From the NCBI GenBank assembly GCA_017471245.1, contig JAFUVB010000039.1, positions 1-38,855 on the forward strand: a stretch of DNA of 38,855 nucleotides, given 5' to 3'. This DNA comes from Prevotella sp. (lineage in GTDB: Bacteria > Bacteroidota > Bacteroidia > Bacteroidales > Bacteroidaceae). Below the pieces are notes generated by a model that had not been told where the DNA came from, ran no database searches, and saw nothing but the letters and a program-made list of their open reading frames with translations. This document shows positions 11,335 through 35,080 of the stretch, piece by piece; position 1 is the stretch's first letter; the number at the start of each line of letters is the position of its first letter. The position numbers and the translations under genes are program-made.

Positions 11335-11438
11335 AAAAGCATAGGTTTTAAGTGCTAAAAACTATGTTTTTACAAGCCAAAACCATAGGTTTCGTTCAAC
11401 AAAAACATAGGTTTTGCGAGGTAAAACCATAGGTTTTG
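11335..11438. repeat. 22-bp repeat array 1, five CATAGGTTT-type units
   Basis: The conserved C before ATAGG falls at 11340, 11362, 11384, 11406 and 11428, exactly 22 bp apart. The best units read AAAACCATAGGTTTT, a 6-bp-arm dyad around ATA. Spacers of about 7 bp are unrelated to one another. Unit 2 is degenerate (AAAAACTATGTTTTT). The array starts immediately past the T-run of the terminator that ends the upstream minus-strand transcript. Confidence 0.85.
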
Positions 11439-11488
11439 AAAAAACGACAGCAGGAAAAACGCCAGAAAGACCGTTTTTCCTGCTGTCG
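11439..11488 (-). terminator. strong Rho-independent terminator
   Basis: CGACAGCAGGAAAAACG (11445-11461) and its exact complement at 11472-11488 form a perfect 17-bp stem with a 10-nt loop. On the minus strand the stem is followed by six Ts (11444-11439). It lies 90 bases after the stop of the DUF2027/Smr gene. Confidence 0.85.
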
Positions 11489-11489
11489 G

Positions 11490-11520
11490 CAAAGTTAGAA
11501 GGCACCGTTTTGCGAACAAC
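11490..11520 (-). promoter_or_regulatory. weak promoter-like pair in front of the terminator
   Basis: Minus-strand GTTG (11520-11517), 19 bp, then TAACTTTG (11497-11490). If used, transcription would begin at the foot of the 17-bp hairpin and stop at its T-run, giving a very short RNA of about 50 nt. The -33 box is imperfect, so this is tentative. Confidence 0.3.
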
Positions 11521-11578
11521 ATTTTGTAATATCTTTTCACAACTACAAAACAATGCCGCCGTGCTTTTTATCCAGGTG

Positions 11579-12739
11579 CTACTTGATTGTTACCTGCGTG
11601 GCACCGTAGCCATATTCCTGAAACGAGGCATCCTGATAAGGATATGACTTGTATTTATAGTTCAGTTCGTTGATGATGGCACGGCGCAACACACCCTCGC
11701 CCTTGCCGTGAATGAACACAATTTTATGCCCTTTGTTACCTCCATAGTCGGCAAGTGTGCGGCGGAACACGTCCAACTGATAACTCAGGATGTCGGCCGG
11801 CGACATGCCTGCCGTGGTGTCCAGCAGTTCGCCGGCATGCAGATCCACCACCACAGGCTCGTCGCCCGCATGATGTTTCGGCGCAAAGGGGTTCCCCTGC
11901 TTGCCATGCTCGTATCTACGGACGTATGAGTTGGCGTTTCTGGCGGCCTCGCCCGTCATCTGCTGGCGCGAGGGAATGTGGTCGTTCTTGGCAGAAAACA
12001 TCTCCTCTTTCAGTTGCTTGGCATCCACCACAAGAGGACGTGCCACACGGTCGTTCTCAATAACGGTGTGAACCATCGCCTTTGTCTCAAAGAAATCGTT
12101 CTCCTGGAACGTGTGCAGTTTGTAGAATTTCACCGGATCCACGCGCAATTGTACCGAAACGGGGTCTTTCAGCATGAAACTCTTGTCGCGCTTATAGGCC
12201 ACCAACTGCACGGCAAGGTGCTCCATGCCGTTCAAATCTTCTTTTCCGAACTCCTCGATGAAGAGTTTGGTGTTCGGTTCCACCTCTCCTGCGGCCTTCA
12301 ACTGCCACGACTTGCCCTCGGCAACGAGATAAGTGAAATGGATATAATAGTTGCTGTCGTTGACGATGTAGGTTTCATAGCGCGTTCTGGTCATTTCGAG
12401 GATGTCGATGGGCACAAAAGCGATGTAGACAGACAACTGGTCGCCGCCCTTCCGCTCCTCCGGCTTCCTCCTGAAAGTGATGGGGCGGTCGGCAGGATCG
12501 TCGCTCTCGGGTTCCTTCGAGGCAGAAGCGGTGCCGGGTTTCGCATTTCCCGCCTGTTTCTTGTTTACCACATTGGCGGTGCTATAGTCCTCGTCGTTCA
12601 CGAGAACCACCTCTCTGACGGAAGTGGGAATCTGGAATCCATCCTCATCTTCCACCAAAACGATGTCCTTTCCCTTGAATCCGGCAATCACGCCGCCACC
12701 GATTTCGCTCAGAAACCTCACTTTATCTCCAATTTTCAT
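11579..12739 (-). CDS. DUF2027 protein with C-terminal Smr domain
   Basis: The 386-residue cytoplasmic protein begins with an SH3-like barrel (MKIGDKVRFLSEIGGGVIAG). A linker rich in charged and Ala/Ser residues follows (about 60-95), then a DUF2027 beta domain with IAFVPIDILEMTRTRYETYI. The C-terminal Smr domain (about 300-386) has DLHAGELLD and IHGKGEGVLRRAI; the latter is the HGxGxG element of MutS2/Smr nucleases. Smr domains bind or nick nucleic acids, and several act on stalled ribosomes. This architecture is typical of Bacteroidetes and its role is unknown. The gene is separated from queA by a heptad-repeat hairpin and ends before a strong terminator. Confidence 0.82.
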   Translation of the reverse strand: MKIGDKVRFLSEIGGGVIAGFKGKDIVLVEDEDGFQIPTSVREVVLVNDEDYSTANVVNKKQAGNAKPGTASASKEPESDDPADRPITFRRKPEERKGGDQLSVYIAFVPIDILEMTRTRYETYIVNDSNYYIHFTYLVAEGKSWQLKAAGEVEPNTKLFIEEFGKEDLNGMEHLAVQLVAYKRDKSFMLKDPVSVQLRVDPVKFYKLHTFQENDFFETKAMVHTVIENDRVARPLVVDAKQLKEEMFSAKNDHIPSRQQMTGEAARNANSYVRRYEHGKQGNPFAPKHHAGDEPVVVDLHAGELLDTTAGMSPADILSYQLDVFRRTLADYGGNKGHKIVFIHGKGEGVLRRAIINELNYKYKSYPYQDASFQEYGYGATQVTIK

Positions 12740-12771
12740 ATCTATTTCTTGTTGTTTTGTTTATTATGTTT

Positions 12772-12863
12772 AGAAGTCAGAGGTGAGAGGTGAGAGGTGA
12801 GAGAATAGTACTGAGATTTAATAATCTATTCTCTTGCCTCTTGCTTCTTGCTTCTTGCTTCTT
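12772..12863. repeat. heptad-repeat inverted pair (large hairpin)
   Basis: The left arm 12772-12808 contains AGAGGTG-type 7-mers in tandem and ends AGAGAATAG. The right arm 12826-12863 is its inverted partner, with four TTGCTTC-type 7-mers starting CTATTCTCT. The 7-bp register is the same in both arms and the outer nucleotides are drifting. It lies between queA and the DUF2027/Smr gene and may end the queA transcript. I recall similar heptad hairpins as dispersed elements in Bacteroidales, but cannot verify that here. Confidence 0.7.
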
Positions 12864-12881
12864 AAAAAACCAAGCACCCCC

Positions 12882-14111
12882 CTATGGAATCAGCAATGAA
12901 CTATCACCATAGCTCAGGAAACGGAAGTCGTGAGCCAAGGCAAAGTCATAGATTTTGCGCCAATCACCATGGACAAAAGCACTCACAAGGAGCAGTAAAG
13001 TGCTTTGCGGCTGATGGAAATTGGTGACGAGCATCTTCACAATCTTATAGTCGTAGCCCGGCGCAATGATGATCTGCGTGCTGCCATGCAGGGTGTTCAG
13101 CCCGTTTTTCTCCATCCACGCAGCGATATTCTGCAGTGCCTTGACGGGCGAAATGCCTTTCTGCGCCGCCATACCGTCGTAAGGCTCCCACTGACCGACA
13201 TGCAACGCCTCGTCGGAAGCATCGGGATTGGTCTCAAAATGGCACCCGATGTAGTACAAACTCTCCAATGTGCGCACGCTCGTCGTACCTACCGCGATGG
13301 CACGGGCACCGCTGTCGATCAGTCGCATGATGGTTTCCCGCTTCACGCTGATATACTCCGTGTGCATGTCGTGACCCTCAATCTCCTCGCTTTTCACGGG
13401 TTTGAAGGTTCCGGCACCCACATGCAGCGTCAGTTCTTCGCGCTGAATGCCGTGCTCATCGAGCGATTTCAGCACCTCATTCGTGAAATGCAGCCCTGCC
13501 GTGGGAGCCGCCACGCTGCCCTTTATCTTGCTGTATACGGTCTGATAGGTCACTTTGTCGCTCTCCTCCGTCCTGCGATTCAGGTACGGGGGAATGGGTA
13601 GTTCGCCGGCAGCATCGATGATTTCGGCAAACGAAACCGAAGCGTCGTCCCACTCAAAATCAATCCAGAAGCTGGTGCCATGCTCGCTTTTGCGGTCGGC
13701 GGTGAGCGTTATCGACTTGCCGTTGATGGCGATTTCCTTCTGCAGGCGGCCCTCCTTCCATTTCTTCAGATTACCCACGAGGCACAGCCACGCACATTTT
13801 CCGCGCGCCTGAAACATCTGTTCGTAGTCGGCAGGCATGGCGGGTTCGAGCAAGAACACCTCTATCAGGGCGCCGGTGCTCTTCTTGAAGTGCATGCGAG
13901 CTTGGATAACGCGCGTGTTGTTGAACACCATCAGCGCGCCTTTCGGCAGGTATCGGGCGATGTTGCAGAAGATATCCTGCGACACTTCGCCATGTCTGTA
14001 AACCAGCAACTTGCTCTGGTCGCGCTGCGCAATGGGGAATTTGGCGATGCGCTCGTCGGGAAGCTCGTAGCTGTAATCCTTTATCCGGATGTGTTTTGTA
14101 TCTTTTTCCAT
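12882..14111 (-). CDS. queA: S-adenosylmethionine:tRNA ribosyltransferase-isomerase
   Basis: QueA transfers the ribosyl part of SAM to preQ1 in tRNA, giving epoxyqueuosine. Family landmarks are LPDERIAKFP near the N-terminus, MVFNNTRVIQARM, and VAAPTAGLHFT, followed by LHVGAGTFKPVK and VGTTSVRTLES. The C-terminus has MLVTNFHQPQSTLLLLVSAF. At 409 residues it is about 55-60 longer than classical QueA. The extra length is mostly a segment between TSVRTLES and the TQIIIAPGYDY motif (GQWEPYDGMAAQ region). It is the last gene of the Bat-PAP2-queA run, 12 bases after the PAP2 gene. No preQ1 riboswitch is apparent in that small gap. Confidence 0.93.
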   Translation of the reverse strand: MEKDTKHIRIKDYSYELPDERIAKFPIAQRDQSKLLVYRHGEVSQDIFCNIARYLPKGALMVFNNTRVIQARMHFKKSTGALIEVFLLEPAMPADYEQMFQARGKCAWLCLVGNLKKWKEGRLQKEIAINGKSITLTADRKSEHGTSFWIDFEWDDASVSFAEIIDAAGELPIPPYLNRRTEESDKVTYQTVYSKIKGSVAAPTAGLHFTNEVLKSLDEHGIQREELTLHVGAGTFKPVKSEEIEGHDMHTEYISVKRETIMRLIDSGARAIAVGTTSVRTLESLYYIGCHFETNPDASDEALHVGQWEPYDGMAAQKGISPVKALQNIAAWMEKNGLNTLHGSTQIIIAPGYDYKIVKMLVTNFHQPQSTLLLLVSAFVHGDWRKIYDFALAHDFRFLSYGDSSLLIP

Positions 14112-14123
14112 TGAAATAGCGTA

Positions 14124-14816
14124 TTAATAAACCGATGCCTTCATCACTGCAAATGCCAGGATGAGCACCATCGACGTGATCACCAGGTCGGTATCGCGCG
14201 CCGTTACGGGCAGCGTTGCCGCCGGTTTAGGCTGCTCGCCGCCGGGCAGAGCGCACGTGCTGTCGTGAAGTTTCAGATATATGCGATAGGTGGCTATGCC
14301 CATCAGCGTGCCGAAACACAAGCCTGCGAGTATGTCGGAGGGATAATGCATGCCGAGATAGAGCCGTGTGTAGCAGTTGAGAAGCACCCACGCCGCCATG
14401 GCAACGGTGAAAGCGCGCCGCCTCAACGTAAGCGACAGGAACGTAGCAATAACCGATGTGTTGGCAGCATGTGCGGAAAAGAAGCTGTAATCGTTGTTTC
14501 TTGCTGAGATAACCACATCAACAAGATACTTGAACATAGGATCGTTGCACGGGCGAGGTCGCTCAAACAGCGGCTTAACGATAAAATTCGTGATGCCGGC
14601 CGTGAGTGCCACGCCCGCCACAGCACAGGCGGCAACGAGCATGATCTGCGGTATCGTCTCGTTGTCTCGCATGATCACATAGAACAAAACTATGTAAAGG
14701 GGTATCCAGACATAGCCCGACGTGAGCGTAACCATAAGCCCGTCGAAAAACAAAGAGCTGCTCCCGTTGAACAACAGCAGCACTTGCCGGTCTATTTCCA
14801 TCAGAAAACCCATCAA
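14124..14816 (-). CDS. PAP2-family membrane phosphatase
   Basis: This 230-residue integral membrane phosphatase has about five or six hydrophobic segments. The three PAP2 motifs are visible: KPLFERPRPC, SFFSAHAANT (phosphate-binding with catalytic His) and TRLYLGMHYPSDILAG. Likely substrates are undecaprenyl pyrophosphate or phosphatidic-type lipids; which one cannot be decided. Its start overlaps the stop of the BatD-BatE gene by 4 bases, tying it to the Bat operon. The C-terminus has a Pro/Ala-rich stretch and one further hydrophobic segment (TSMVLILAFAVM), which is not part of the catalytic core. Confidence 0.85.
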   Translation of the reverse strand: MMGFLMEIDRQVLLLFNGSSSLFFDGLMVTLTSGYVWIPLYIVLFYVIMRDNETIPQIMLVAACAVAGVALTAGITNFIVKPLFERPRPCNDPMFKYLVDVVISARNNDYSFFSAHAANTSVIATFLSLTLRRRAFTVAMAAWVLLNCYTRLYLGMHYPSDILAGLCFGTLMGIATYRIYLKLHDSTCALPGGEQPKPAATLPVTARDTDLVITSMVLILAFAVMKASVY

Positions 14817-17374
14817 ATCACCTCAATCTCAGATGTCAATATCCATCCTTCGCGGCCGTCGGCAAGGCGCACGCCCTTCCAGTCTACCATGGTATCGTCG
14901 GTGATGTCCACACGTGTTCCTTCGTGAATCACGCCCTGATCGGCACTGTTGGCTGCGGGAGTCTTCTTCACCATCGCAGAAGGCGCGATGACGATTGCCC
15001 CTTTCCGGGCGCGCATACGGCTCTGCTGCTGGAAGGCAAACACATTGCTCAGCACGAAAAGAATGATGAACACCATCCCGCCGAAGAACCCTATCTTGCG
15101 CAAAAGCAGGTTCTGGGAGAACAGATACACCAGCGCCAGCACCAGCGTAAGCAGCATTGAGACAATGGCAAGCGCAGCCCAGCCGTCGATGTCGAGCAGG
15201 TTTACCAATGAGCGATACCATGAAAAGAAGAACATTTCGCTCTCTGGAGTGATCTTGTCGATAGTCTTCGACCGCGCCATCTGCAAGTTAAAGCGGATGT
15301 CTTCATCAGAAGGCGACAAGAGCAAGGCACGCTCATAGCTGAGCACGGCACGCGTGATGTTGTCAGTGCGATAATATGAATTGCCGAGATTATAGTATAA
15401 ATCGGCACTCTTACCTTCTTTCAGCAGTTCCTCATAGTCCTTGATGGCCTGCTGATAGTTGCCCTTGCTATATTCCGCATCTGCCTGCTGCTTGGTTACG
15501 GCATGCGCGTTCACCGACAAGAATATCAGGAAGAGGAGCGCCATAGTCTTGGATCCTTTCTTCACTTTCTTCATTACGCCTTCTATCTTCGTGATTGCCT
15601 CCATGGCTGTTTCGTATGTCTTGTTCATGTTTCCGGCAGAATCGCCCGGCGCATAGCGCTCGTATTCGCATTCGTTCAGGGCTTCAATAAACTTGCTGAC
15701 GGTGGATTCGTCGACGTCGCAAGCCTCAAGCTTGCCCGCAATATTGTCGTGCGAGAGATCGGTAACGGGAATATTCAGCTTGTCGCCGATATAGCCCCAC
15801 AACGCGCGGAGCACCTCATCATAGAACTCATTCTGGCGGTTTTCGCGCATCAGCTTGCTGGCAAGCTTCAGGCGTTTCGTGGCTATCTTGTTGGCTTTCT
15901 TGCCCTTCATCTTCACCAAATCGGCATTGTTGATCGCCCGTTTGCGGAAAATCACCATCAGAATGATGAACAGACAGAGCAGCGTGAGCAAGAGAATCCA
16001 ATACAGGGAGCTACCAAAGAAGATGTCGTTGCCGCTCACCATGTTTGCCTTTCCTGTCTTGATGGAATGGATGTCCTGGTTTTTCTCAAGCATAAAATCT
16101 GCAGAATTGCCGGTGCCACCCTCGCCTTTCTCCACCTTTAGCTCAAAAGGCTGGCTCTTGATTGTCTTATACGAGCGGCTGTTCAGGTCGAAATAGGAGA
16201 ACTCCACCGGTGGTATTGTGTATGTTCCTTGGTTTCGGGGAACCACCAGAAAGTCGTAAATCATGTTGCCTTCCACACCGTTGACGGTCAGCTTTGTCTT
16301 GTCGGTCACCTTCGGATCATACTTATCAAAGTCCTTTGGGAAATTAACCACGGGCTGCTTGATGAGCTTGAGATTGCCGTTTCCGCCGATAACGACGCGC
16401 ACGGTGACAGGATCGTTGGCCTTCACAACCGACTTATTGAGCTGGGCAGAGATATTAAACACACCCACTCCACCTGAGAAATCGGCCGGTTTACCTGCCG
16501 GAAGCGGATCCACTTGTATCGTTACGCCGGGAGCCTTGATGCTCCGTTTCACCTCGATATATCCGCTTCCGCCGTTGAAGAATTCCTCAAACGGATCGAC
16601 ATCACGGTTCTTCTGCACCACCGTACCTTCAAACGTGATGCTGGGAATCTCCAACTTGCCCGTCATCTGGGGATACATCACATACTGGCTCCATGTTCCT
16701 GTACGATAGTTCTTGCCGTTGATGTTCTCCACATGCAATGATTTCTGCTGCGGAAGCTTCACTTCCTGGGAGTGGAAACCCGTAAGATCGGGCATGTTAC
16801 CCTCAAACTGCGTGAGTCCGACCAGCGTATATACCTTGTATGTAAGCAGAATCGGCTCCTGCTCATATACGCGTTTCTTGTTCGCGCTCACCTTGATGAA
16901 CAAATCGGAATCACGGATTGGAGAACCGGCAGCGCGCATCTGGGGCATGTCGTCTTCCTCTTCGTGCATCTTGGGAGTGCCTCCCTGACTGCTTTCAGCA
17001 CCTGAAACGGTGATCTTTACCGCCTGAGAAGCTATCTGCTTGCCATTTGCATGGATGTGGGCAGGTGGGATTGAATAGATTCCGTTCTTATTGGCACACA
17101 GGATAAAAGTGTATGTGATGGATGAAGAACTGCTGGTATGGCCGTTCACCATCTGAAAACTCGACTGCGTTGATGTATATGGTCCGGTAATCAATTCTAA
17201 CCCTTCGGGAATGCCTCCTACACGAAAATCCGATGCATTCTGCGTATTCACGGTGTAAGTAAGGCGGAAATTCTCGCCATTCTGTACATGTGAGGGTGCA
17301 TTCACTGTCAATGTCTGGGCATGAACGGCGAATATGAACACCAACATCTGCAATATGATCAATAACCTTTTCAT
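14813..17374 (-). CDS. BatD-BatE fusion protein of the oxygen-tolerance operon
   Basis: The 853-residue ORF joins two proteins that are usually separate. Residues 1-20 are a signal peptide. Residues 21-415 are the BatD beta-rich extracytoplasmic region and 457-477 a membrane segment, followed by a cytoplasmic tail to about 600. Residues 601-625 (MKKVKKGSKTMALLFLIFLS then VNAHA) look exactly like an independent BatE signal peptide. Then come TPR motifs (about 628-700), two membrane segments (733-754, 763-781) and an SH3-like domain (785-853). The internal ATG at 15574 overlaps an out-of-frame TAA (15576-15574) in the same TAATG form as the MoxR/DUF58 junction. So either the genes fused recently or BatE can also be made separately. 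It begins 9 bases after batC. Confidence 0.85.
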   Translation of the reverse strand: MKRLLIILQMLVFIFAVHAQTLTVNAPSHVQNGENFRLTYTVNTQNASDFRVGGIPEGLELITGPYTSTQSSFQMVNGHTSSSSSITYTFILCANKNGIYSIPPAHIHANGKQIASQAVKITVSGAESSQGGTPKMHEEEDDMPQMRAAGSPIRDSDLFIKVSANKKRVYEQEPILLTYKVYTLVGLTQFEGNMPDLTGFHSQEVKLPQQKSLHVENINGKNYRTGTWSQYVMYPQMTGKLEIPSITFEGTVVQKNRDVDPFEEFFNGGSGYIEVKRSIKAPGVTIQVDPLPAGKPADFSGGVGVFNISAQLNKSVVKANDPVTVRVVIGGNGNLKLIKQPVVNFPKDFDKYDPKVTDKTKLTVNGVEGNMIYDFLVVPRNQGTYTIPPVEFSYFDLNSRSYKTIKSQPFELKVEKGEGGTGNSADFMLEKNQDIHSIKTGKANMVSGNDIFFGSSLYWILLLTLLCLFIILMVIFRKRAINNADLVKMKGKKANKIATKRLKLASKLMRENRQNEFYDEVLRALWGYIGDKLNIPVTDLSHDNIAGKLEACDVDESTVSKFIEALNECEYERYAPGDSAGNMNKTYETAMEAITKIEGVMKKVKKGSKTMALLFLIFLSVNAHAVTKQQADAEYSKGNYQQAIKDYEELLKEGKSADLYYNLGNSYYRTDNITRAVLSYERALLLSPSDEDIRFNLQMARSKTIDKITPESEMFFFSWYRSLVNLLDIDGWAALAIVSMLLTLVLALVYLFSQNLLLRKIGFFGGMVFIILFVLSNVFAFQQQSRMRARKGAIVIAPSAMVKKTPAANSADQGVIHEGTRVDITDDTMVDWKGVRLADGREGWILTSEIEVI

Positions 17375-17383
17375 ATCTCTCGT

Positions 17384-18052
17384 TTACCAATTCTTGTTTA
17401 GGGTCCTCTTGCGAGGCTGTTGCATTGCCTTTTTCAACCGTTGCTGGGTTGCTTTCTCATTCTGGACGGCAGCGTCGAGCAGGCGTTCTGCGTTGTCTTT
17501 GCTCATCTGCTCTTGCGGCTGTTGTTGCTGCTGCTTGTTGTCCTTGTCCTTTTTCTGGTTCTGCTTGTTCTGCTGCTCATCGTTGTTTTCCTCATTCTTT
17601 TGCTGATTATCCTTGTTCTGCTGAGGGTTTTCTTTCTGCAGCTTCTTGCAAAGAGCCAGGTTATAGCGTGTCTCGTGGTCTTTTGGATTACATCTGAGTG
17701 ACTGTTCGTAAGCCTTGATGGCATCTCCGAACATCTTATGATTCTGACAAATCACGCCAATATTATGAAATGACTTTGACTGACGGAACTTATTCTTCTC
17801 CAGTTTGGCAGCAGATTGATACTGGGCAACGGCTGCCGAGTCTTTCTGTTGCATCATCAGCGAGCATCCAAGGTTATAAACAGCCTGGGGATTCTCAGGA
17901 TTCTTGGCTGTGGCTTTGCGGTATAGCACTTCTGCCTTCGCATAGTCTTTCTGCCGATACATGCGGTTGCCCTCCCTGATAAACTGCCTGTCCTCCTGCG
18001 CAAGGGCGATTATCGGGATGAAGATGAGTAATATGGTGACAATTCTTCTCAT
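17384..18052 (-). CDS. batC: BatC, TPR protein of the Bat operon
   Basis: The 222-residue protein has a signal peptide (MRRIVTILLIFIPIIALAQ) and tetratricopeptide repeats at about 25-135 (AKAEVLYRKATAKNPENPQAV; YNLGCSLMMQQKDSAA; AIKAYEQSLRCNPKDHET). A very Gln/Lys/Asn-rich low-complexity segment follows (about 140-195), then a conserved C-terminal tail (AERLLDAAVQNEKATQQRL). The TPRs probably scaffold the VWA proteins BatA and BatB on the periplasmic side. The start overlaps the stop of batB by 4 bases. Length is near the Bacteroides BatC norm. Confidence 0.85.
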   Translation of the reverse strand: MRRIVTILLIFIPIIALAQEDRQFIREGNRMYRQKDYAKAEVLYRKATAKNPENPQAVYNLGCSLMMQQKDSAAVAQYQSAAKLEKNKFRQSKSFHNIGVICQNHKMFGDAIKAYEQSLRCNPKDHETRYNLALCKKLQKENPQQNKDNQQKNEENNDEQQNKQNQKKDKDNKQQQQQPQEQMSKDNAERLLDAAVQNEKATQQRLKKAMQQPRKRTLNKNW

Positions 18053-23240: not shown

Positions 23241-23390
23241 CAAAAACTTACATTCTGCCGCAATAAAGCATAGGTTTCAGGAGCCGGAAACATAGGTTCG
23301 GGCGATGAAAAGCATAGGTTTAACCCCACAAAAACATAGATTTGGACACGCAAAAACACAGGTTTGAACAAGCAAAAACATAGGATTTGC
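23241..23390. repeat. 22-bp repeat array 2, six or seven CATAGGTTT-type units
   Basis: The conserved C before ATAGG falls at 23269, 23291, 23313, 23335, 23357 and 23379, all exactly 22 bp apart. A degenerate seventh unit is in register at 23247. The orientation matches arrays 1 and 3. Unit sequences vary (CATAGGTTC, CATAGATTT, CACAGGTTT, CATAGGATT), while spacing does not, which suggests the step itself is selected. 22 is not a multiple of three, so the pattern is not coding. Confidence 0.85.
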
Positions 23391-23438
23391 CGCACCTGCA
23401 ACTCCACTCCCAAGGCGAAAAAACAGTTTTTAGCGTAT

Positions 23439-23765
23439 CTGCGCATAAGTCACAGAAAACCAAATGGTTACGAAAAGTTCTGCGTTATCCGCTACGTTAC
23501 CTGCTGCGTATTCACTGCGCAATCCGCTGCAAGTGTTTTTGCTGATGCTGCTTCGTGTGCTGTTATGGTTTACGCAGCAGGTTTGCAGATGCGATGCTAC
23601 AAGTTTGCAGATATGATGCAGCAGGTTTGCAGACGCGGTGCTGCAAGTTTACAGATACCGATACTGCATGCTTGCAGATGGTGACGCAGAGAATACGCAG
23701 CAGGTAACGCAGCGAGTAACGCAGAAAAACACGTAACAAACTGTTATTCAACCGCTTATGCGCAG
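23439..23765. repeat. 82-bp-arm inverted repeat enclosing a repeat array
   Basis: The left arm (23439-23520) and the reverse complement of the right arm (23684-23765) align without gaps over 82 bases, with 62 matches by my count. They share an 11-base identical tip (CTGCGCATAAG) and a 19-base identical block (CGTTACCTGCTGCGTATTC). The 163-base loop holds the GCAGGTTTGCAG array. Within each arm an ACGCAG-type word recurs at 11-12-base steps, half the 22-bp period. The size and structure resemble a MITE-like or cruciform element. Confidence 0.75.
23574..23684. repeat. 22-bp array of a different unit (GCAGGTTTGCAGA type)
   Basis: Units start at 23574, 23596, 23618, 23640 and 23663 (steps 22, 22, 22, 23). 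They alternate between GCAGCAGGTTTGCAGA and GCTACAAGTTTGCAGA types. The unit shares only a GGTTTGC-like core with the CATAGGTTT arrays, but keeps the same step. It fills the loop of the inverted repeat. Confidence 0.8.
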
Positions 23766-23852
23766 CACACACAGTTCTTGTTTTTTATCCTTAGGAGAGC
23801 TGTATGAACTGCGCATAAATCACATTCCACGGTGGGAAATGCCGATTTTTTG

Positions 23853-25352
23853 TTATTTCTTTTTCTTGAGTTGCAGTTTGGGAATACGTAGTTTCATGCC
23901 TTCTTTCACTTCAACTACACCGTTATATGCCTGGATATAGCATTCCATTCCATCTCCAAGATAGAACTTGGATATTTTCTTCATGTTCTGGTCTGCCCTG
24001 ACAGTGATTGTTTCCTGGGTTCCCACAATCACATAGGCACCCGTATTCACCATCTGTCTGGCGGTTTTCAGACCTTGAGAATTGTCACCCTGAGGAAGCG
24101 GTACGGCTTTCTCCTCAGGTCGGGCAACAGGTTCTTTCTTGGCATTGGCAACTGGCTTGTCCTGCACTGATGCGGGTTTGGTTTCCGTAACGGGCGCAGC
24201 TGGCACCGACTGCGCAGCTATTGCGTTCTTTTTGGCATTGATTGACTCATTGCGTGCTTCACGAACTTTTGTCAAAGAATCCACACGCGCTTTGATTCTG
24301 GCTTCTCTTGCGGCATTGATAGAGTCGAGTCGCTGCAGGGAATCAGTAGAAGTAGAGTCGATAAACTCACCATTAATCATTTCAGACTGTCCCATAGGAA
24401 TATAGACCTTGTTTTTTTTGATTCCTATATAGTAGCCAATACCCAACGCAATCAGGGCAACAAGGAGATAGCTCAACAGTCTGCCCCATACACTTGTCTT
24501 TTCTTCCATAGTTGTTTCTTCGTTTTCAGTTTCTGTATTTATTAGATTATTTGTTTTTTCTTTGTCTGCATCCTCCGCCATACCTTCGTTCCCCAGGGCT
24601 GCATCAAGCCGTTGCTCAACTTGTTGAACAGGGTTTTCTTCATCATCCGGTTCTTCTTGATGGTCAGAGACTACATCAACGGGCATTACATTACTTTGGT
24701 CAATAGCCTCATCATCACACTGTTCTGTAATGGCTTTATCCAGTTCAACGGTCTTGTAATCTTGTTCTTCAATCGGATTATCTTGTTCTGCGACCGCATT
24801 GTTGCGTTCATCAATTTCATCTTCTTGCTCATCTATCACGTCTTCTTGCTGTTGCACTTCTTCAACGTCGGCATTTTCTTCTTCATCAGGCAGTGACTGC
24901 TGAACAATTACTTCATCATGCTCATCGCCGGAATCTGATTCCGCAAGTTCAATACTATCATCAGAAGGCAATAAAGCCTCATTGGCGAGCAGCTCTTGAC
25001 TATCTTCGAACTCCACGCCGTCATTCAATACGACTGTATCAAATTGGGAAAACGGCTTGTTGACAAGCTCTTTCATCACGCTGTCGGGAGAAAACGTTAT
25101 CTTTCCCCTACCTTCGATGACAATGCGCTCGCCCGTTTTGACATTCACACTGGCGCGATCCTTCACTTCAATCACCTTGAATGTGCCAAGTCCCTTCACT
25201 TTTACCAGCTTATCATCGCGGAGACCGTCGTTGATAACTGCAATAAAGTTATTCAAGAACTGCCGTGCTTGCTTCTCTTGAAGTCCGTGTTTCTCAGCCA
25301 AAACACGTGCAAACTCCATCATGATGCCCTTAGCCATTCTCTGTTCCTCCAT
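23853..25352 (-). CDS. HU-like DNA-binding domain + transmembrane segment + LysM domain protein
   Basis: This 499-residue three-part protein starts with a HU/IHF fold at about 7-97 (VKVKGLGTFKVIEVKDR; ITFSPDSVMKELVNK). A very acidic Gln/Glu/Asp-rich region follows at 115-285, then a hydrophobic segment at 291-310 (LLSYLLVALIALGIGYYIG) and a charged, coiled-coil-prone stretch (340-375). After an Ala/Pro-rich linker, a LysM-like domain lies at about 438-492 (GAYVIVGTQETITVRADQN...LGDGMECYIQAYNG). The natural reading is N-in, with LysM outside touching peptidoglycan. However, IKKNK after the helix conflicts with the positive-inside rule, so topology is uncertain. The start overlaps the preceding HU gene by 23 bases (8 if Met6 is used). 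Confidence 0.8.
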   Translation of the reverse strand: MEEQRMAKGIMMEFARVLAEKHGLQEKQARQFLNNFIAVINDGLRDDKLVKVKGLGTFKVIEVKDRASVNVKTGERIVIEGRGKITFSPDSVMKELVNKPFSQFDTVVLNDGVEFEDSQELLANEALLPSDDSIELAESDSGDEHDEVIVQQSLPDEEENADVEEVQQQEDVIDEQEDEIDERNNAVAEQDNPIEEQDYKTVELDKAITEQCDDEAIDQSNVMPVDVVSDHQEEPDDEENPVQQVEQRLDAALGNEGMAEDADKEKTNNLINTETENEETTMEEKTSVWGRLLSYLLVALIALGIGYYIGIKKNKVYIPMGQSEMINGEFIDSTSTDSLQRLDSINAAREARIKARVDSLTKVREARNESINAKKNAIAAQSVPAAPVTETKPASVQDKPVANAKKEPVARPEEKAVPLPQGDNSQGLKTARQMVNTGAYVIVGTQETITVRADQNMKKISKFYLGDGMECYIQAYNGVVEVKEGMKLRIPKLQLKKKK

Positions 25353-28704: not shown

Positions 28705-28735
28705 CAAAATTACAAACTTTTTACGAATAAACAAA
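28705..28735 (-). promoter_or_regulatory. promoter for rpmB operon
   Basis: Minus-strand TTTG (28735-28732), 19 bp, TAATTTTG (28712-28705). Both boxes and the spacing match the Bacteroidetes consensus. Confidence 0.75.
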
Positions 28736-28813
28736 ACAATTATCAGAATAATCTTTGCAATTAAGTTTTTTTTTCGTTTAAAGCTGCGTTTATATATGAA
28801 AAACCTGAATCTC

Positions 28814-28901
28814 GATGCACGAGAGGATGGATCATCATACATGGGAAGATGAATCTTCATGCACGAGAAGATAGATCATCATGCACGAGATACTACTGAA
28901 T
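28814..28901. repeat. 22-bp tandem array, ATGCACGAGAAGAT type, four units
   Basis: Units begin at 28814, 28836, 28858 and 28880, exactly 22 bp apart. Units 1 and 3 are nearly identical (ATGCACGAGAGGATGGATCA versus ATGCACGAGAAGATAGATCA); units 2 and 4 are diverged. The array lies between the ABC permease stop (28919) and the rpmB promoter. The unit sequence is unrelated to the CATAGGTTT arrays. Confidence 0.8.
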
Positions 28902-28918
28902 GCACACTGAAACCTGCG

Positions 28919-30118: not shown

Positions 30119-30154
30119 AGATATTTTCTGATATAAAAACGCTACTAATTACGA

Positions 30155-30799
30155 CTATAACCTGTAAACCACATCATAAGGCAGCTCCATTCGCTTGCCG
30201 ATACTTGTGAGAACAACGCCGGCTCCCTGTGCCTTTGCCTCTTTCAACAGGATATCCGCCATTATTCTTGAGTTGGTATCATCGAGGTGGGATATAGGTT
30301 CGTCTGCCAAGATAAAGTCGAATGGCTGCACGAGAGCACGCACGAGCGCCACCCGCTGCTGCTGTCCAAACGACATCTTGCCTATCAACACATTCTTTTT
30401 CTCTGCTATTCCGAGCATCTCGAACCACTCATCAATCTGCTTCTGACTCTTGAAACGCGTTATCTTGTTTTTGATTTCAACGTTCTCATAGGCAGTAAGC
30501 TCCGGGAAAAGCCTTAATTCCTGGAAGAGATGACTGACGTGGCGGCTTCTTATTTCCACCCAATCGCTCACCTTCAGGCTATTGATATTCACATCATCAA
30601 AGAAAATATTCCCCGAGTAGTCGTGCCTATAGCCTATCAGATAGCTACAGAAGGTGCTCTTCCCTTTTCCGCTGTCGGCTTCTACAAGATACAGCCTTTC
30701 TTTCTCGAACAGCACATCCTGCTGCCATATTTCACTGTCCTGCTCCTCGCGAGATGCAAAGACATGAGGAATCACGTATTTTAAACGAATCGAATTCAT
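30155..30799 (-). CDS. ABC transporter ATP-binding protein with altered motifs
   Basis: The 214-residue LolD/MacB-type ATPase is atypical. Walker A reads ADSGKGKST (41-49), with Ala for the first Gly. The Q-loop Gln93 is present (FQELRLFPELT). The signature is MSFGQ (142-146) instead of LSGGQ. Walker B and its Glu are intact (FILADEP), and the D-loop is SHLDD. Where the switch histidine is expected, VVLTSIGKR has none. Missing switch His with intact catalytic Glu suggests slow or altered hydrolysis. It overlaps the lipoprotein gene by 4 bases and precedes its cognate permease, so this is likely one complex. Confidence 0.85.
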   Translation of the reverse strand: MNSIRLKYVIPHVFASREEQDSEIWQQDVLFEKERLYLVEADSGKGKSTFCSYLIGYRHDYSGNIFFDDVNINSLKVSDWVEIRSRHVSHLFQELRLFPELTAYENVEIKNKITRFKSQKQIDEWFEMLGIAEKKNVLIGKMSFGQQQRVALVRALVQPFDFILADEPISHLDDTNSRIMADILLKEAKAQGAGVVLTSIGKRMELPYDVVYRL

Positions 30800-32148
30800 C
30801 TGATTGTCAATATGATTGTGCTGACATCGCCCGTTATAGGCAACATCACCGACTTGATTGTTTCAACTATCTCATTGTTGCCAACCCCATCTAAATGGAG
30901 CAACAGACACATTTTCTCACCCTTGAGCGCATTTGACACCGAAGGATCGGTATTCTTATAGGAAGGCATCACGCTGCCGTTGGGAACCAACTGCCCATAG
31001 AACTGCTTGTCGGAAGTAACGCCGAACAAGAATCTCCGGCTCTTGTCTTGATAGACAAACGCATTGACTGCCTTCGCGTCTCTGCGGATGGAAGCCCCGT
31101 CGGGACAGGATTTCATCCAATAGTCCACATCTTTCAGGAATCCGTCGTCAGCCAATTGTGCATGGATAGATACCATGGGGTCCATGTTATGGGCAGTTAT
31201 CGCTACCTCACCATCTACCCCCTGGAGAATCCTGTTCATATCTATTGCGGTGTTCACCCCCGTCAACAGCGATGTCAGCATTCTGTTTTTCCGGATCATT
31301 CCCAACAAATCCTCACCCTTGGTGTTGATCATCAGCGAACAGAAATCAGAGCCCGACAGCTTGCCGATATATGCTCCGCTGATCGGGCGGAACAACTCTT
31401 TGGCAGCTACCAAAGCCTCGTTCACACGCTTATTCAGCGAAAACGTCTCTCCCTTCATACGAAGAGTGCCGTCGGAACACGCTATTTCTGCGGCAATCAG
31501 TATCTGCGACGCATCCGTTTTTTCGGGTGCTCCCAGCGTGAAAGGTGCCGCAAACATCTCCGGAAGGGCAGCTGCCTGAGCGACAAGAGCGACCGGAGTG
31601 GACATGGATTCTAACCTTTCCATCAGTGGAGACGACTTGATTCCCATGTCATCTCCCTGTTTGAAATAGGCACTTATTTGGCTAATGGTTTCCGAATGCT
31701 GCGCCGGAAGAGCCGGTCCCATGACAACCACGGCAGTATTACCTATGCCGACGACCCACGATCCCTTGACAACGGTGAACAGATTTCCGCGGAACGGCGT
31801 CGCTTCCTGGCAGATTCCCTTCGCAGCGAGGCGCTTGAAGAAGTGCTCCACCTGCTTTCTGTCGTCCACTTTTGCCACCATTCCGAGCGCACCTTCCTGC
31901 GATTCGAAGAGAAAAAGCCTTGCAGACACATCGATGCCCATGTCTTCTTCGCTGTCGATACCCAATGTTGAACAGAGCATTTGCGATGCATCTTGCTTTC
32001 CTTTGCCAGATGATTCAAGAAGTTGCTGCATGTCGATGGAAAGCAATGCCATGCTATTGCCCGGTATCACATTCAAATAATCATCATCGGAACACGAGGA
32101 AAACATGACGGCAAGCAACATGAAAACCCAAACAATCTTTTTTTTCAT
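30796..32148 (-). CDS. lipoprotein, DUF4836-like
   Basis: The 450-residue protein has a lipoprotein signal (MKKKIVWVFMLLAVMFSSC with lipobox VMFSSC, followed by Ser-Asp-Asp-Asp). The DDD after the Cys resembles Bacteroidetes surface-export rules (acidic residues near +2), so it may reach the outer surface. The start of the mature part (IPGNSMALLSIDMQQLLE) and repeated globular modules resemble DUF4836 proteins of Bacteroidales; I give this moderate weight. It is sandwiched between rsmE (15-base gap) and the ABC ATPase (4-base overlap), so it may be a substrate or accessory lipoprotein of that ABC pair. Confidence 0.65.
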   Translation of the reverse strand: MKKKIVWVFMLLAVMFSSCSDDDYLNVIPGNSMALLSIDMQQLLESSGKGKQDASQMLCSTLGIDSEEDMGIDVSARLFLFESQEGALGMVAKVDDRKQVEHFFKRLAAKGICQEATPFRGNLFTVVKGSWVVGIGNTAVVVMGPALPAQHSETISQISAYFKQGDDMGIKSSPLMERLESMSTPVALVAQAAALPEMFAAPFTLGAPEKTDASQILIAAEIACSDGTLRMKGETFSLNKRVNEALVAAKELFRPISGAYIGKLSGSDFCSLMINTKGEDLLGMIRKNRMLTSLLTGVNTAIDMNRILQGVDGEVAITAHNMDPMVSIHAQLADDGFLKDVDYWMKSCPDGASIRRDAKAVNAFVYQDKSRRFLFGVTSDKQFYGQLVPNGSVMPSYKNTDPSVSNALKGEKMCLLLHLDGVGNNEIVETIKSVMLPITGDVSTIILTIR

Positions 32149-32163
32149 TCTTTATTCTTTCTG

Positions 32164-32898
32164 TTATTCAACCCGACGAGCCAACTGCGACATCATCACG
32201 GCATACAATGCTGCGGTCTCAGTGCGCAGCCGCGCGCTTCCGAGCGATATGCTCCTGTAGCCTGCATCCATAGCCATGCGAACCTCATCAATGGAGAAAT
32301 CGCCCTCGGGACCTATCAAAATCGTTATTTCATCATCATTTCCTGCATTCTCTTTTAACGAGAGGATGCTGAACAAATCTTCACGTTCTACTTCCTCATA
32401 ACAATGCGCAATGAACTTCATTCCACTGCGCGGAACCTGGAGAAACTCCTTGAACGGCACCATCTGGTTAACCACCGGCTTCCAAGGTTTTCTGCTTTGC
32501 TTCATGGCAGAGACAACTATCTTGTCGAGTCTCACCGTGCGAAGCATCTTCCTTTCTGAGAATCTGCATCCGATAAAGCTGAGTTCGTCCACTCCAACCT
32601 CAGTTGCCTTCTCGGCAAACCACTCCACCCGGTCCATCATTTTGGTAGGCGACATCACCAAATGGATTCTTCCGCGCCATGCTTTCTGTTGGGGAATCTC
32701 CTCGATTATCCTATACAAGCAGCGCTTGGTTGCGGCAATCGTCACCTCGGCACGATAGTATTTCCCGGCGCCATCCATAAGAAACATCTCGTCGCCGCTC
32801 TTTAATCGGAGCACGCGAAGGGCATGCAAGCCCTCGTCCATGGGCATCTCGTTCTGCGAAGATGCATCAGGCACATAGAAAAACCTCGATTCTTTCAT
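32164..32898 (-). CDS. rsmE: 16S rRNA (uracil1498-N3)-methyltransferase RsmE
   Basis: The 244-residue SPOUT methyltransferase starts with the PUA-like MKESRFFYVPDA region and has VEWFAEKATEVGVDEL. SPOUT knot motifs are ILIGPEGDFSIDEV and SLGSARLRTETAALYAVM, diagnostic of RsmE. It overlaps the bifunctional nuclease gene by 4 bases. Confidence 0.94.
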   Translation of the reverse strand: MKESRFFYVPDASSQNEMPMDEGLHALRVLRLKSGDEMFLMDGAGKYYRAEVTIAATKRCLYRIIEEIPQQKAWRGRIHLVMSPTKMMDRVEWFAEKATEVGVDELSFIGCRFSERKMLRTVRLDKIVVSAMKQSRKPWKPVVNQMVPFKEFLQVPRSGMKFIAHCYEEVEREDLFSILSLKENAGNDDEITILIGPEGDFSIDEVRMAMDAGYRSISLGSARLRTETAALYAVMMSQLARRVE

Positions 32899-33458
32899 GA
32901 CTGTTGTTGGTTATTTGGAAGCTGGCGCCGCCTCTTTTCATCCCTCAAATGTGAGGCGAGCTCATAGTTTTCATCATCAATTGCCTTGCCGAGAGCACTT
33001 TCGAGCATGTCGTCGCTAAGTGTATTCACGGGAATGGATACTCCATTCTGGTTGGCAGAATATCTTACTGACTGGCGAAGCATCAGTTGCGACACGATAT
33101 AGAGCGGTATGTTCCCCGCAACGCTCAGCAACACGGCATCGCTGGCGCGAATCGGCACGTAATCCAGTGTGTCGGTGTTGCACAATATCACGCGATACTG
33201 CCCGTTTATCAGGTTAGTGATGATGAGTTCCAGCCGCAGGTGCGTTTGGTTTGCTATCACTTTGCACATCACTTCGGGCAGCAAGATGTCGGCAATCGGA
33301 AGTCCTTTGGCTCGGAGTTCTAACTGCACGGCCATCGATTTCTCACAGATGATGCTGATTTGCTGCTCGCATTGCTCATCCGTGAGTATCAACAGGCCTA
33401 AGTTTTCACCCCCGACAATCTCGGAAACGCCCTTGAACACCAGACGTACCTTATCCAT
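32895..33458 (-). CDS. bifunctional nuclease (BFN/DUF151) family protein
   Basis: The 187-residue protein has a BFN domain at about 1-135: LLILTDEQCEQQISI, LIITNLINGQYRVIL, and DAVLLSVAGNIPLYIV with the typical ASDA motif. The C-terminal UvrB/UvrC-like UVR motif reads LGKAIDDENYELASHLRDEKRRR in part (ALGKAIDDENYELASHLRD). This BFN plus UVR layout is common in Bacteroidetes. Its nuclease role is only family-level knowledge. It begins 6 bases after the permease gene stop. Confidence 0.88.
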   Translation of the reverse strand: MDKVRLVFKGVSEIVGGENLGLLILTDEQCEQQISIICEKSMAVQLELRAKGLPIADILLPEVMCKVIANQTHLRLELIITNLINGQYRVILCNTDTLDYVPIRASDAVLLSVAGNIPLYIVSQLMLRQSVRYSANQNGVSIPVNTLSDDMLESALGKAIDDENYELASHLRDEKRRRQLPNNQQQS

Positions 33459-33464
33459 AAGCTT

Positions 33465-34736
33465 CTATACTTGTATTTCCTCCTTGCTGGGACGGAATAT
33501 CAGGGCAAACGAAACCCCAACTACCAGTGCGTAGGCAGCAAAGATAAACCAGCACGTAGGCCAGTCGCCGACGGTGTAGGTCTGCTCTCCTATCACCTGG
33601 CTTGTGGTGTAATGGTTGATGATTTTCTGCGCAATGATCGTTCCGATGGATGCTCCCACGCCGTTGGTCATCAGCATGAACAGTCCCTGAGCGCTTGAAC
33701 GGATCTCGGGAACGGTGGTCTTGTCGACAAACAGCGAGCCGCTGATGTTGAAGAAGTCGAATGCCACGCCGTAGACTATCATTGAAAGCACGAACATCCA
33801 TACGCCGCTGCCGGGATTTCCCAGCCCAAACAGACCGAAACGCAATACCCATGCGAACATGGCAATCAACATCACGTTCTTGATTCCGTAACGTTTCATG
33901 AAGAACGGTATCAGCAAGATGCAGCACGTTTCACTGATCTGCGACAGCGAAATCAGGATATTGGCATGCTGAACACCGAAGGTTGACGCATATTCAGGCT
34001 GCGCTCCGTAGCTGAAAATATAGGGATTGGCAAAGCCATTCGTGATCTGGAGGCTCACACCCAGCAACATGGAGAAGATGAAGAAGATGGCCATCTTCTT
34101 GTCTTTAAACAGCGTGAAGGCGCGCAAACCGAATGCATCGACGAACCCTTTCTTATCTGAACTGGTCGAAACAGGGCATGGCGGCAGCGTGAAAGTATAG
34201 AGGAACAGGATCAGACTCAGCACACCGGAGGTGATAAACTGGTTCTGGTTCACCTGGAAGCCCATCAAATCGACAAACCACATGGTGAGAATGAAGCCGA
34301 TAGTGCCGAAAACACGGATTGGCGGGAATGCTTTCACCGTGTCCATGCCCGCTTTTGTCAGGGCATTATAGGCAACTGAGTTCGTAAGAGCGAGCGTCGG
34401 CATGTAGAAAGCCACGCTCAGCGAATAGAGCAGGAAGATAACGGAGAACTGCGTATCGGTTCCTGCCGACATTCCATACATGGCTGCGCTGATGAGAAAT
34501 ACGCCTGCCACGAGATGGCACAGGCCTAACAGCCGCTGTGCAGGCACCCATCGGTCGGCAACAATACCCATCAGGGCGGGCATGAAGATCGAAACGATGC
34601 CCTGCATGGTATAGAACCAGCCGATGCTTGCTCCGAGACCGATGTTACCAAGGTAACGTCCCATTGACGTAAGATAGGCACCCCAAACCGCAAACTCAAG
34701 GAAGTTCATGAGCGCCAGACGGATTTTCAAATTCAT
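33465..34736 (-). CDS. nupG: nucleoside permease, NupG/XapB-type MFS transporter
   Basis: The 423-residue protein has 12 predicted membrane segments and belongs to the nucleoside:H+ symporter family. It starts with MNLKIRLALMNFLEFAVWGA, typical of NupG/XapB, and has GIVADRWVPAQRLLG in the first loop, plus ISGSLFVDKTTVPEIRSSAQ in the second half. It imports nucleosides across the inner membrane. A textbook promoter lies upstream (34806-34776), and the five following genes are spaced to be cotranscribed. Confidence 0.88.
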   Translation of the reverse strand: MNLKIRLALMNFLEFAVWGAYLTSMGRYLGNIGLGASIGWFYTMQGIVSIFMPALMGIVADRWVPAQRLLGLCHLVAGVFLISAAMYGMSAGTDTQFSVIFLLYSLSVAFYMPTLALTNSVAYNALTKAGMDTVKAFPPIRVFGTIGFILTMWFVDLMGFQVNQNQFITSGVLSLILFLYTFTLPPCPVSTSSDKKGFVDAFGLRAFTLFKDKKMAIFFIFSMLLGVSLQITNGFANPYIFSYGAQPEYASTFGVQHANILISLSQISETCCILLIPFFMKRYGIKNVMLIAMFAWVLRFGLFGLGNPGSGVWMFVLSMIVYGVAFDFFNISGSLFVDKTTVPEIRSSAQGLFMLMTNGVGASIGTIIAQKIINHYTTSQVIGEQTYTVGDWPTCWFIFAAYALVVGVSFALIFRPSKEEIQV

Positions 34737-34775
34737 ATTTTTCTATTTTTATTCGTTTGCTACCTATAATTGATG

Positions 34776-34806
34776 CAAAGATAATCAAAATTCGGATAAG
34801 AGCAAA
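34776..34806 (-). promoter_or_regulatory. promoter for nupG operon
   Basis: Minus-strand TTTG (34806-34803), 19 bp, TATCTTTG (34783-34776). Exact consensus; 40 bases upstream of the start codon. Confidence 0.8.
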
Positions 34807-34928
34807 ATAAATAACATTTATTAAACTGTTATGTCCGTGCATGCCGCAAATAGGATTGCCGCGCGGCGGATGATGCTGCAAGCACGTGAAGACATCACCT
34901 TGGGCCGCGAAACAGCCCGGAAATCGCA

Positions 34929-35080
34929 AAACCATAGCTATTGAAGGGCAAAACCATAGGTATTGAGGCGCGAAAAAAAAGCATAGGTTTCAAGGTTCAA
35001 AAGCATAGGTTTTGACGGTCAAAAACATAGGTTTCGAGGCTCAAAAACATAGGTTTTGAAAACCGAAAACATTGGTCTTG
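34929..35080. repeat. 22-bp repeat array 3, seven CATAGGTTT-type units
   Basis: The conserved C before ATAG falls at 34933, 34955, 34982, 35004, 35026, 35048 and 35070. Steps are 22 bp except one of 27, where an A8 run has expanded the spacer. The last unit is degenerate (AACATTGGTCTTG). Orientation is the same as in arrays 1 and 2. It lies between the terminator at 35134-35164 and the nupG promoter. Confidence 0.85.

Follow-up and report, generated by a model that had tools for sequence, protein, structure and literature searches.

Near-palindromic repeats on a 22-bp lattice, dispersed between genes on Prevotella chromosomes

Intergenic arrays of near-palindromic sites, held in register every 22 bp, are dispersed over Prevotella chromosomes, where they keep apart from one another and turn over between close relatives. 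The explanation favoured here, to which a probability of just under one half (about 0.48) is assigned, is that they are dispersed chromosomal elements resembling BIMEs or BrickBuilt, with a lattice that would be bound by putative dimers on one face of the DNA.

Arrays in the window and the CATAGG lattice

The window is a 38,855-nt stretch of the Prevotella sp. source genome; G-numbers such as G015 and G414 designate other genomes. Five arrays with a 22-bp step had been reported in a preliminary description of it, and all five were confirmed in place by unit tables. A self-match scan of the window (lags 8-60) likewise returned them as its five best 88-bp windows, all at lag 22, with scores of 0.80, 0.66, 0.61, 0.61 and 0.60. 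Other lags reaching 0.60 were 44, in the same arrays, 15, 30, 45 and 48 at ~17.5 kb, and, at 24.7 kb, 21; the matches at the latter two places fall within long ORFs. The features concerned are the following.

11336..11445, no strand assigned: CATAGG array 1, five units at a 22-bp step, one inverted in register
11445..11488, no strand assigned: perfect hairpin with 17-bp arms, adjoining CATAGG array 1
23265..23396, no strand assigned: CATAGG array 2, six units at a 22-bp step
23407..23799, no strand assigned: inverted-repeat element adjoining CATAGG array 2, with ends CTCCCAAGG / CCTTAGGAGAG
23574..23684, plus strand: GCAGGTTTGCAGA array, steps of 22, 22, 22 and 23 bp, loop of the inverted-repeat element
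28806..28893, plus strand: ATGCACGAG array, four dyadic units at a 22-bp step (dyad P = 0.015)
34928..35086, no strand assigned: CATAGG array 3, two units separated by a 27-bp step from five more, all others 22 bp apart
35133..35203, minus strand: FopS-family sRNA (RF04319, 75.3 bits), context outside the array

Units of CATAGG array 1 start at 11336, 11358, 11380, 11402 and 11424, that at 11358 lying on the opposite strand with the register kept; those of array 2 start at 23265, 23287, 23309, 23331, 23353 and 23375, and those of array 3 at 34928, at 34950 and, after the 27-bp step, from 34977 through 35065. The GCAGGTTTGCAGA units start at 23577, 23599, 23621, 23643 and 23666, and the ATGCACGAGAAGAT units of the 28.8-kb array at 28815, 28837, 28859 and 28881. 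The only irregular steps announced, one of 23 bp and one of 27 bp, are those from 23643 to 23666 and from 34950 to 34977. All five arrays lie between long ORFs; a 106-aa ORF starting at TTG (23364-23684), which overlaps two arrays, looks spurious. The 3' end of the FopS-family sRNA borders the spacer with CATAGG array 3; the FopS paper and PMC5771137 provide context only.

Within the element at 23407..23799, 12-bp repeats of the TGCGTTACC type stand in opposite orientation, and arms at 23478-23519 and 23685-23726 enclose the GCAGGTTTGCAGA array as a loop, so that this array does not constitute the independent site type it had been taken for. The idea of several site types was thus half right: their working side by side is unsupported, since a single family dominates in both of the species studied most closely, and neither the GCAGGTTTGCAGA nor the 28.8-kb units recurred as exact 10-14-mers in 400 kb of other source-genome DNA.

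Throughout the 3.73-Mb source genome, the CATAGG core produced 355 matches, compared with 7 for the reversed control, and the family was mapped to 113 clusters. In each unit a near-palindrome of 17 bp is followed by 5 bases that vary freely, and register is held even upon inversion. Steps between neighbouring sites in 439 kb were of 22 bp 74 times, of 23 bp three times, and a single time of 27, 44, 54 and 66 bp, whereas the 10 steps of 1 bp and 8 of 21 bp are taken as single sites scored on both strands; 13 of the 74 steps of 22 bp link sites on opposite strands. Among 151 units YRAAAVCATAGGTTTYR is conserved and 5 bp are free, with 122 distinct 5-mers, in agreement with the earlier remark on the bases between cores. 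Under a loose filter, CATAGGTTT bases of the downstream neighbouring unit are 66-84% conserved versus 30-39% for the best linker base. Linkers are not common between loci, for which reason most loci seem old, although the cores are intact. The identical repeats and unique spacers of CRISPR loci are not found in these arrays, their units being degenerate and their linkers showing a partial consensus.

Chromosomal spacing, turnover and possible mobility

A 13-bp dyad unrelated to CATAGG occupies the same 22-bp step in G015, within a dispersed element of ~400 bp. Its core, ATYTGMNKCARAT, gave 156 matches against 0 for the control, and among the first 100 matches all steps below 300 bp were of 22, 44 or 66 bp. 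The matches listed span 0-2.09 of 3.17 Mb, the positions of origin and terminus being uncertain, and a 168-kb gap among them contains conjugative-transposon genes in both 20-kb samples taken. No array was found in these two samples of the integrated conjugative element, although one of them carries a single core (at most 1 mismatch) together with a 22-bp repeat in two copies. The conjugative element may simply be recent DNA.

Arrays of the same family are rarely found close together. Only 2 of 57 intervals in the source genome are shorter than 7 kb versus 17.3 expected, a count built on match lists shown to 100 places, and one of those two depends on an isolated, mismatched site; reassignment of the arrays among intergenic gaps predicts 5.8 short intervals, with 0 observed (P = 0.0002). 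Similarly, 1 of 79 intervals in G015 is below 5 kb (13.5 expected) and 0 of 11 in G183 below 7 kb (2.9 expected, P = 0.018), the latter value referring to 15 arrays on four contigs, leaving out three C69 arrays (two separate pieces) and four weak clusters (of two or three sites, each with 2 mismatches and mostly off register), one of which sits ~370 bp from a counted array. No avoidance is seen among the 7-bp and 12-bp repeats of this DNA. Nor do the non-CATAGG 22-bp arrays avoid one another, a class that includes at least one CATAGG array piece (window 23329), and avoidance is weak when all 22-bp arrays are pooled (P = 0.06). Intervals reach 84 kb, indicating exclusion plus randomness and no regular ruler. 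Target immunity, or selection acting against repeats that lie close together, would also produce avoidance at short range.

Fast turnover of array positions is evident from G414, where four of the five window arrays are missing, so that no single array is essential. CATAGG array 1 (11.3 kb) is the sole shared one, within a nearly identical segment. CATAGG array 2 is absent, with 40 bp in G414 in place of about 670 bp in the source genome, as is the 28.8-kb array; CATAGG array 3 is lacking in both L137 and G414, in a spacer of 57 bp versus about 310 bp.

Such presence and absence among close relatives favours the main rival explanation, namely that the arrays belong to non-autonomous mobile elements (MITE-like, as BrickBuilt was described), the 22-bp sites being bound by a transposase and avoidance reflecting target immunity. 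TnsB of Tn7 and MuA of Mu bind sites of ~22 bp and show target immunity; for element ends of Tn7/Mu type, arrays near the termini and a target duplication would be expected, and in the aligned G015 element the arrays are central. This possibility, which we regard as unlikely though deserving serious consideration, also agrees with 14 of 24 G015 arrays, chosen for fit, aligning as a leader, a central array and a tail over ~400 bp with conservation borders, with four G015 copies carrying distinct units in nearly identical order, and with avoidance being seen for CATAGG and not for other 22-bp arrays. Long inverted repeats lie near 15 of 22 source-genome arrays versus 10 of 55 control gaps (P = 7e-5) and, by eye, one G183 array stands beside an apparent integrase remnant. 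Against this reading, under a laxer cut-off, inverted repeats in G183, G414 and G194 are not clearly commoner near arrays (13/26) than in controls (26/70). The three absent-site spacers compared look by eye replaced rather than cleanly interrupted, with no target duplication or common terminus visible at sites too diverged for certainty. Moreover, no transposase gene was noticed on reading the elements, and the apparent age of most loci, their cores still intact, also speaks against mobility. Searches for carriers returned no virus in IMG/VR for the CATAGG and G015 pairs, no plasmid or phage for the G015 element and no plasmid for the window element. If mobility were nonetheless the cause, some 100 small elements that exclude their neighbours would document target immunity in nature in an unusual way.

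Elements of the 23407..23799 type adjoin other arrays of the source genome. This 12-bp inverted-repeat element was considered as a general carrier and discarded: it has 70 exact matches in the source genome and, at up to 2 mismatches, is absent from 15 of 16 other genomes, the CATAGG-bearing G414 and G183 among them, with one match in G003.

Period 22 and dyads across the genus

Neither the step nor the arrays are confined to one strain, and the CATAGG core is carried also by G183, G414, G194, G215 and G397. In a TRF-independent test of noncoding DNA, lag 22 was the commonest of lags 12-60 in 7 of 11 Prevotella samples, with 57 places in the source genome (mean of other lags 5.2), 26 in G015 (4.2), 35 in G183 (5.2), 16 in G414 (1.2) and 5 in G009 (1.1); it was weak in G003 and not raised in G008. 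Eighty named Prevotella loci, picked by a protein and counted among those seven samples, showed it at 40 places (other lags 9.2 on average), and in other families of the order it was not raised (2 places versus a mean of 2.6). Dyads were evaluated by column permutation with CATAGG filtered out, an earlier score on TRF consensus units having been weak (mean 5.6 vs 4.8 for shuffles, 42 units). They reached P < 0.05 in 18 of 49 period-22 arrays (combined P = 1e-12), being non-significant in the other 31 and in all 4 from outside the genus, compared with 2 of 25 arrays of periods 18-20 and 23-26 and 0 of 12 of period 21. A chromosomal lattice of dyads that lies between genes and advances by two helical turns, as envisaged at the outset, is supported genome-wide and in relatives.

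Neutral minisatellites, that is, 22-bp duplications of any intergenic sequence yielded by replication or repair, with core conservation as a residue, could account for the many unrelated unit sequences, some found only once, and for the abundance of other tandem repeats (7, 8, 9, 12 and 14 bp) in the same spacers. This origin is nevertheless improbable, considering that linkers are saturated and cores kept, that dyads are enriched at period 22 only, that odd steps are few and that neighbours are avoided. In addition, period 22 accounts for 59 of 96 diverged arrays (<88% match) and for 4 of 12 near-identical ones, two of these four sitting inside CATAGG-type arrays; the numbers, although small, fit retention better than duplication bias.

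A comparably low likelihood is given to the arrays serving as operators for a global regulator of transcription, despite the sites being dyadic, arrayed and intergenic. The 22 source-genome arrays examined show no preference for gene context (++ 6, +- 6, -- 5, -+ 5), convergent gaps, expected to lack a promoter, holding arrays as often as others; spacing along the chromosome also argues against operators, and an unsystematic comparison revealed no link with any class of genes. The initial report of nearby terminators and promoters holds by eye at both loci inspected (11.3 kb and 34.9 kb), but occurrence in all gene orientations and on both strands makes a terminator or promoter role unlikely. 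Tandem promoters were rejected from the sequence by comparison with the promoter consensus. Finally, hairpins or protein-binding RNA in UTRs are very improbable: short RNA hairpins appear possible by eye for some families, yet position 4 of the CATAGG core (G 79, A 44, T 3, against C 25) disrupts pairing in most of the 151 units, both strands are mixed within one array, one G015 element had no Rfam match at E up to 0.1, and the window returned only FopS at gathering score.

Proposed role and comparison with known systems

In the favoured explanation, arrays would be the cores of dispersed repeat elements of Prevotella chromosomes, probably copied into new intergenic places. Near-palindromic sites every 22 bp would align dimers of one putative, species-specific protein on one DNA face, where they may bind cooperatively, and selection would keep core and spacing as linkers drift. 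Bound arrays may then act in anchoring, compaction, segregation or division-site control. Action at the level of the chromosome is most likely, rather than on single promoters, since arrays lie at least ~5-7 kb apart, occur in all orientations and are absent from the conjugative-element samples. Points against this explanation are the fast turnover of array positions, the other possible sources of short-range avoidance, the weak or lacking avoidance among 22-bp arrays at large, the existence of 22-bp arrays belonging to no visible dispersed family, the arrays with non-significant dyads, the lag-22 results for G003 and G008, and the lone core and two-copy repeat in one conjugative-element sample. 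A stronger version appears doubtful, in which they form a fast-evolving positional code on the core chromosome: dimers of a putative, rapidly diverging protein would cover the dyads of each species on a 22-bp lattice that never varies, with arrays mostly 7-30 kb apart and scarce or missing in DNA of recent acquisition, marking anchoring points or domain borders, much as satellites and their binding proteins do in eukaryotes. Should the favoured explanation hold, a genus prominent in gut and rumen would possess a chromosome-wide protein-DNA lattice of fixed geometry and species-specific sequence, and which sequence-specific proteins organise Bacteroidales chromosomes could be tested with one DNA probe.

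A protein-binding array, whether nucleoid organiser, insulator or iteron-like, had been suggested initially; these roles are putative, as is the protein. Plasmid iterons, such as the 22-bp iterons of R6K, are direct repeats; they mark one origin per replicon, whereas the Prevotella arrays occupy more than 100 chromosomal loci, making an iteron role unlikely. Anchoring, compaction, segregation or division-site control are known elsewhere from Noc, SlmA and gyrase- or IHF-bound BIMEs. Noc (NBS) and SlmA sites are comparable in being short, scattered round the chromosome and bound there by sequence-specific proteins, although they are not known to form phased 22-bp arrays. Among the best matches of a literature search outside most subscription journals, none described dyad arrays with a 22-bp step from Prevotella, and nothing was found there on HU proteins with envelope domains.

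BrickBuilt of Porphyromonas gingivalis is a minisatellite/MITE of 19 copies with a 23-nt imperfect tandem repeat, and 41-, 23- and 22-nt tandem repeats had previously been described in strain W83 (PMC4596501). It is likewise intergenic, dispersed and from Bacteroidales, with conserved and free positions in its repeat, and its leader and tail resemble those of the G015 copies chosen for fit (PMC4596501). The Prevotella arrays differ in their 22-nt unit, about 100 or more loci, species-dependent core, dyads and neighbour exclusion; in the source genome, no common leader or tail is visible, and the spacers compared by eye gave no sign of duplication or of terminal repeats.

Compared with REP/BIME sequences, the Prevotella arrays have a fixed 22-bp lattice, no GTAG-type tag (GTAG/CGTC is absent at the unit end in the profile of 151 units) and no Y1 transposase beside source-genome arrays. 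A REP/RAYT system was rejected for that genome, whose one Y1_Tnp has no core (at most 2 mismatches) in the 2.7 kb around it. On the other hand, REP/BIME sequences are extragenic palindromes in more than 100 copies per genome, regularly spaced and in either orientation (PMC2817692); the Prevotella arrays share these features and are themselves high-copy extragenic palindromes. For REP/BIME sequences, a role in chromosome organisation has been suggested (PMC2817692).

Arrays of the window and of its genome

Unit tables confirmed each of the five arrays with a 22-bp step that a preliminary description had placed in the window, and the best lag-22 windows of a self-match scan (lags 8-60) fell precisely on these five. 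One unit of the array at 11.3 kb is inverted with the register kept, and the array at 23574 forms the loop of an inverted-repeat element. Features referred to here are:

Window 23407-23799 and G000:C106:69847-70119 (same assembly), among others: inverted-repeat elements that combine TGCGTTACCTGC tandem repeats of 12 bp with variable cores of 7-14-bp repeats
Window 23853-25352, minus strand: protein of 499 aa, HU/IHF domain (PF00216) at the N-terminus
Window 35133-35203, minus strand: FopS-family sRNA (RF04319), immediately before the spacer holding array 3 (34928-35086)

The 12-bp inverted-repeat element has 70 exact matches in the window's own genome and a single match, with 2 mismatches, across 16 other genomes; IHF-like sites are present in it by eye. 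The gene of the 499-aa protein adjoins array 2 (23265-23396). By eye the protein also has a linker rich in acidic residues, a single probable membrane helix and a C-terminus resembling LysM, a layout with which a chromosome-to-envelope tether is possible, and its identity to the counterpart in G414, a UBA4268 genome, is 56%, mostly through the linker. The sRNA appears by eye to be kept in a further locus (L137) where array 3 is missing.

Throughout the own assembly (3.73 Mb, 114 contigs), which its named relatives point to as a Prevotella, the core AAAACATAGGTTT of the main family, CATAGG, gave 355 matches at ≤1 mismatch, versus 7 for the reversed pattern. The 439 kb examined (the window plus 20 stretches, four contigs selected for length and matches) contained 22 clusters of at least two sites and 74 site intervals of 22 bp, steps of 1 and 21 being taken as a single site scored on both strands. 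Neighbours at 22 bp were paired ++ 34, -- 27, -+ 11 and +- 2 times, and alignment of 151 units, chosen for CATAGG, ≤1 further mismatch and a loose neighbour, yielded YRAAAVCATAGGTTTYR plus five free bases. Gene orientations around the 22 arrays were ++ 6, +- 6, -- 5 and -+ 5, four arrays overlapping a doubtful ORF from a simple ORF caller.

Dyads, distances and a second system

In G015, a single-contig genome of a second species, the core ATYTGMNKCARAT gave 156 matches versus 0 for the control, and among the 100 listed (up to 2.09 Mb) all steps below 300 bp were 22, 44 or 66. Among non-CATAGG period-22 arrays, 18 of 49 were dyadic at P<0.05 against permuted columns (7/15 in 80 Prevotella loci picked by a protein, 3/13 in the own genome, 0/4 outside the genus), versus 2/25 at periods 18-20 and 23-26; by the same test, period-21 arrays gave 0/12.

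At least 113 CATAGG clusters were mapped on 47 contigs of the own genome. Among the matches listed, 2 of 57 testable intervals were shorter than 7 kb versus 17.3 expected, one of the two involving a lone mismatched site that is probably no array; for the 22 fully read arrays, reassigned among intergenic gaps, the count was 0 versus 5.8 (P 0.0002). G015 had, among the matches listed, 1 of 79 intervals below 5 kb (13.5 expected) and 7 below 7 kb (18.2 expected), and G183, with weak clusters excluded, 0 of 11 below 7 kb (2.9 expected; P 0.018). Such avoidance was not shown by 7-bp repeats, 12-bp repeats or non-CATAGG 22-bp arrays, and with every 22-bp array pooled P was 0.06. Placement fits short-range exclusion plus randomness, with no ruler. 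Register kept despite saturated linkers, dyads only at period 22 and this distance keeping speak for the units as candidate sites recognised by a dimer.

Among the matches listed, 168 kb of G015 (C1:1335265-1502897) lack the core. Both 20-kb samples of this gap carry conjugative-transposon genes, and one held a lone core (≤1 mismatch) and a two-copy 22-bp repeat, with no array. A role of the arrays at chromosome level, which we infer, is favoured by their gene context, by the mixing of strands and by how scarce they are in acquired DNA.

Copying and turnover

Of 24 arrays within the 280 kb of G015 examined, 14, chosen for fit, align as an element of ~400 bp that has a leader and a tail, and four share a nearly identical ordered set of differing units; thus, the element was copied. 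A motif like TTGACAATCAA, which we take to resemble an IHF site, is common by eye to this element and the own-genome inverted repeats. A long inverted repeat adjoins 15/22 own arrays versus 10/55 control gaps, and 13/26 versus 26/70 in G183, G414 and G194 at a laxer cut-off. The copied G015 element and the inverted repeats speak for arrays that would disperse as mobile or mosaic elements. We favour both readings together: elements would be copied to new places and retained for binding by a putative protein.

Syntenic blocks of G414 are 75-91% identical in nucleotides to the own genome. The 11.3-kb array is common to both, in a segment that hardly differs between them; the remaining four window arrays are missing from G414 and their spacers are replaced, although G414 has 256 core matches versus 24 for the control. 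Window ~9277-11580 aligns at 91%, with one ORF 99% identical in protein and flanking blocks at 75-84%, and was probably transferred recently between species. Nor are the arrays confined to one strain, two-unit CATAGG patterns occurring in 26 of 398 genus genomes, own included (≥2 matches in 12; reversed control in 1), and in 1 of 61 of a family sample, the own genome. In G183 and loci L243-L255 and L263-L264, 8-bp repeats of the AAAGGTGA type and motifs like TTACAATTTGTAA occur close to several arrays, and one array adjoins, by eye, an integrase-like remnant.

The 22-bp period across genomes

With TRF on noncoding DNA, the commonest period was 22 in the own genome (22 arrays, against 20 for period 12), G015 (5) and G023 (3), and in the 80 Prevotella loci, fetched via an unrelated protein (15; 21: 7; 20: 2; 23: 2). 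Period 22 was not modal in pooled G003/G004/G008/G009 (3 arrays; period 7: 5), and order-level outgroups had zero period-22 arrays. A TRF-free test (lags 12-60) spoke against the refuting outcome named in the preliminary description, that 22 bp is no commoner than other steps: lag 22 led in 7 of the 11 Prevotella samples, namely own, G009, G015, the 80 loci, and G183, G414 and a small G194/G109/G360 pool, these last three being non-neutral samples fetched for arrays or synteny. Sampling was closer to neutral for own, G015, G023 and the 80 loci. G004 and G023 had lag 44 in first place and lag 22 second (in G023 level with other lags); neither G003 nor G008 showed this, lag 22 being weak in G003 and not raised in G008.

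In other genera of the family lag 22 was first (12 places versus 2.9 for other lags; 9/20 loci), so a weak 22-bp bias may extend beyond the genus. In other families of the order it did not lead (2 places). The top noncoding repeat lag there, in order-level outgroup loci L118-L136, was 23 (9 places; small numbers), the same as the repeat length of BrickBuilt, a minisatellite/MITE of Porphyromonas gingivalis.
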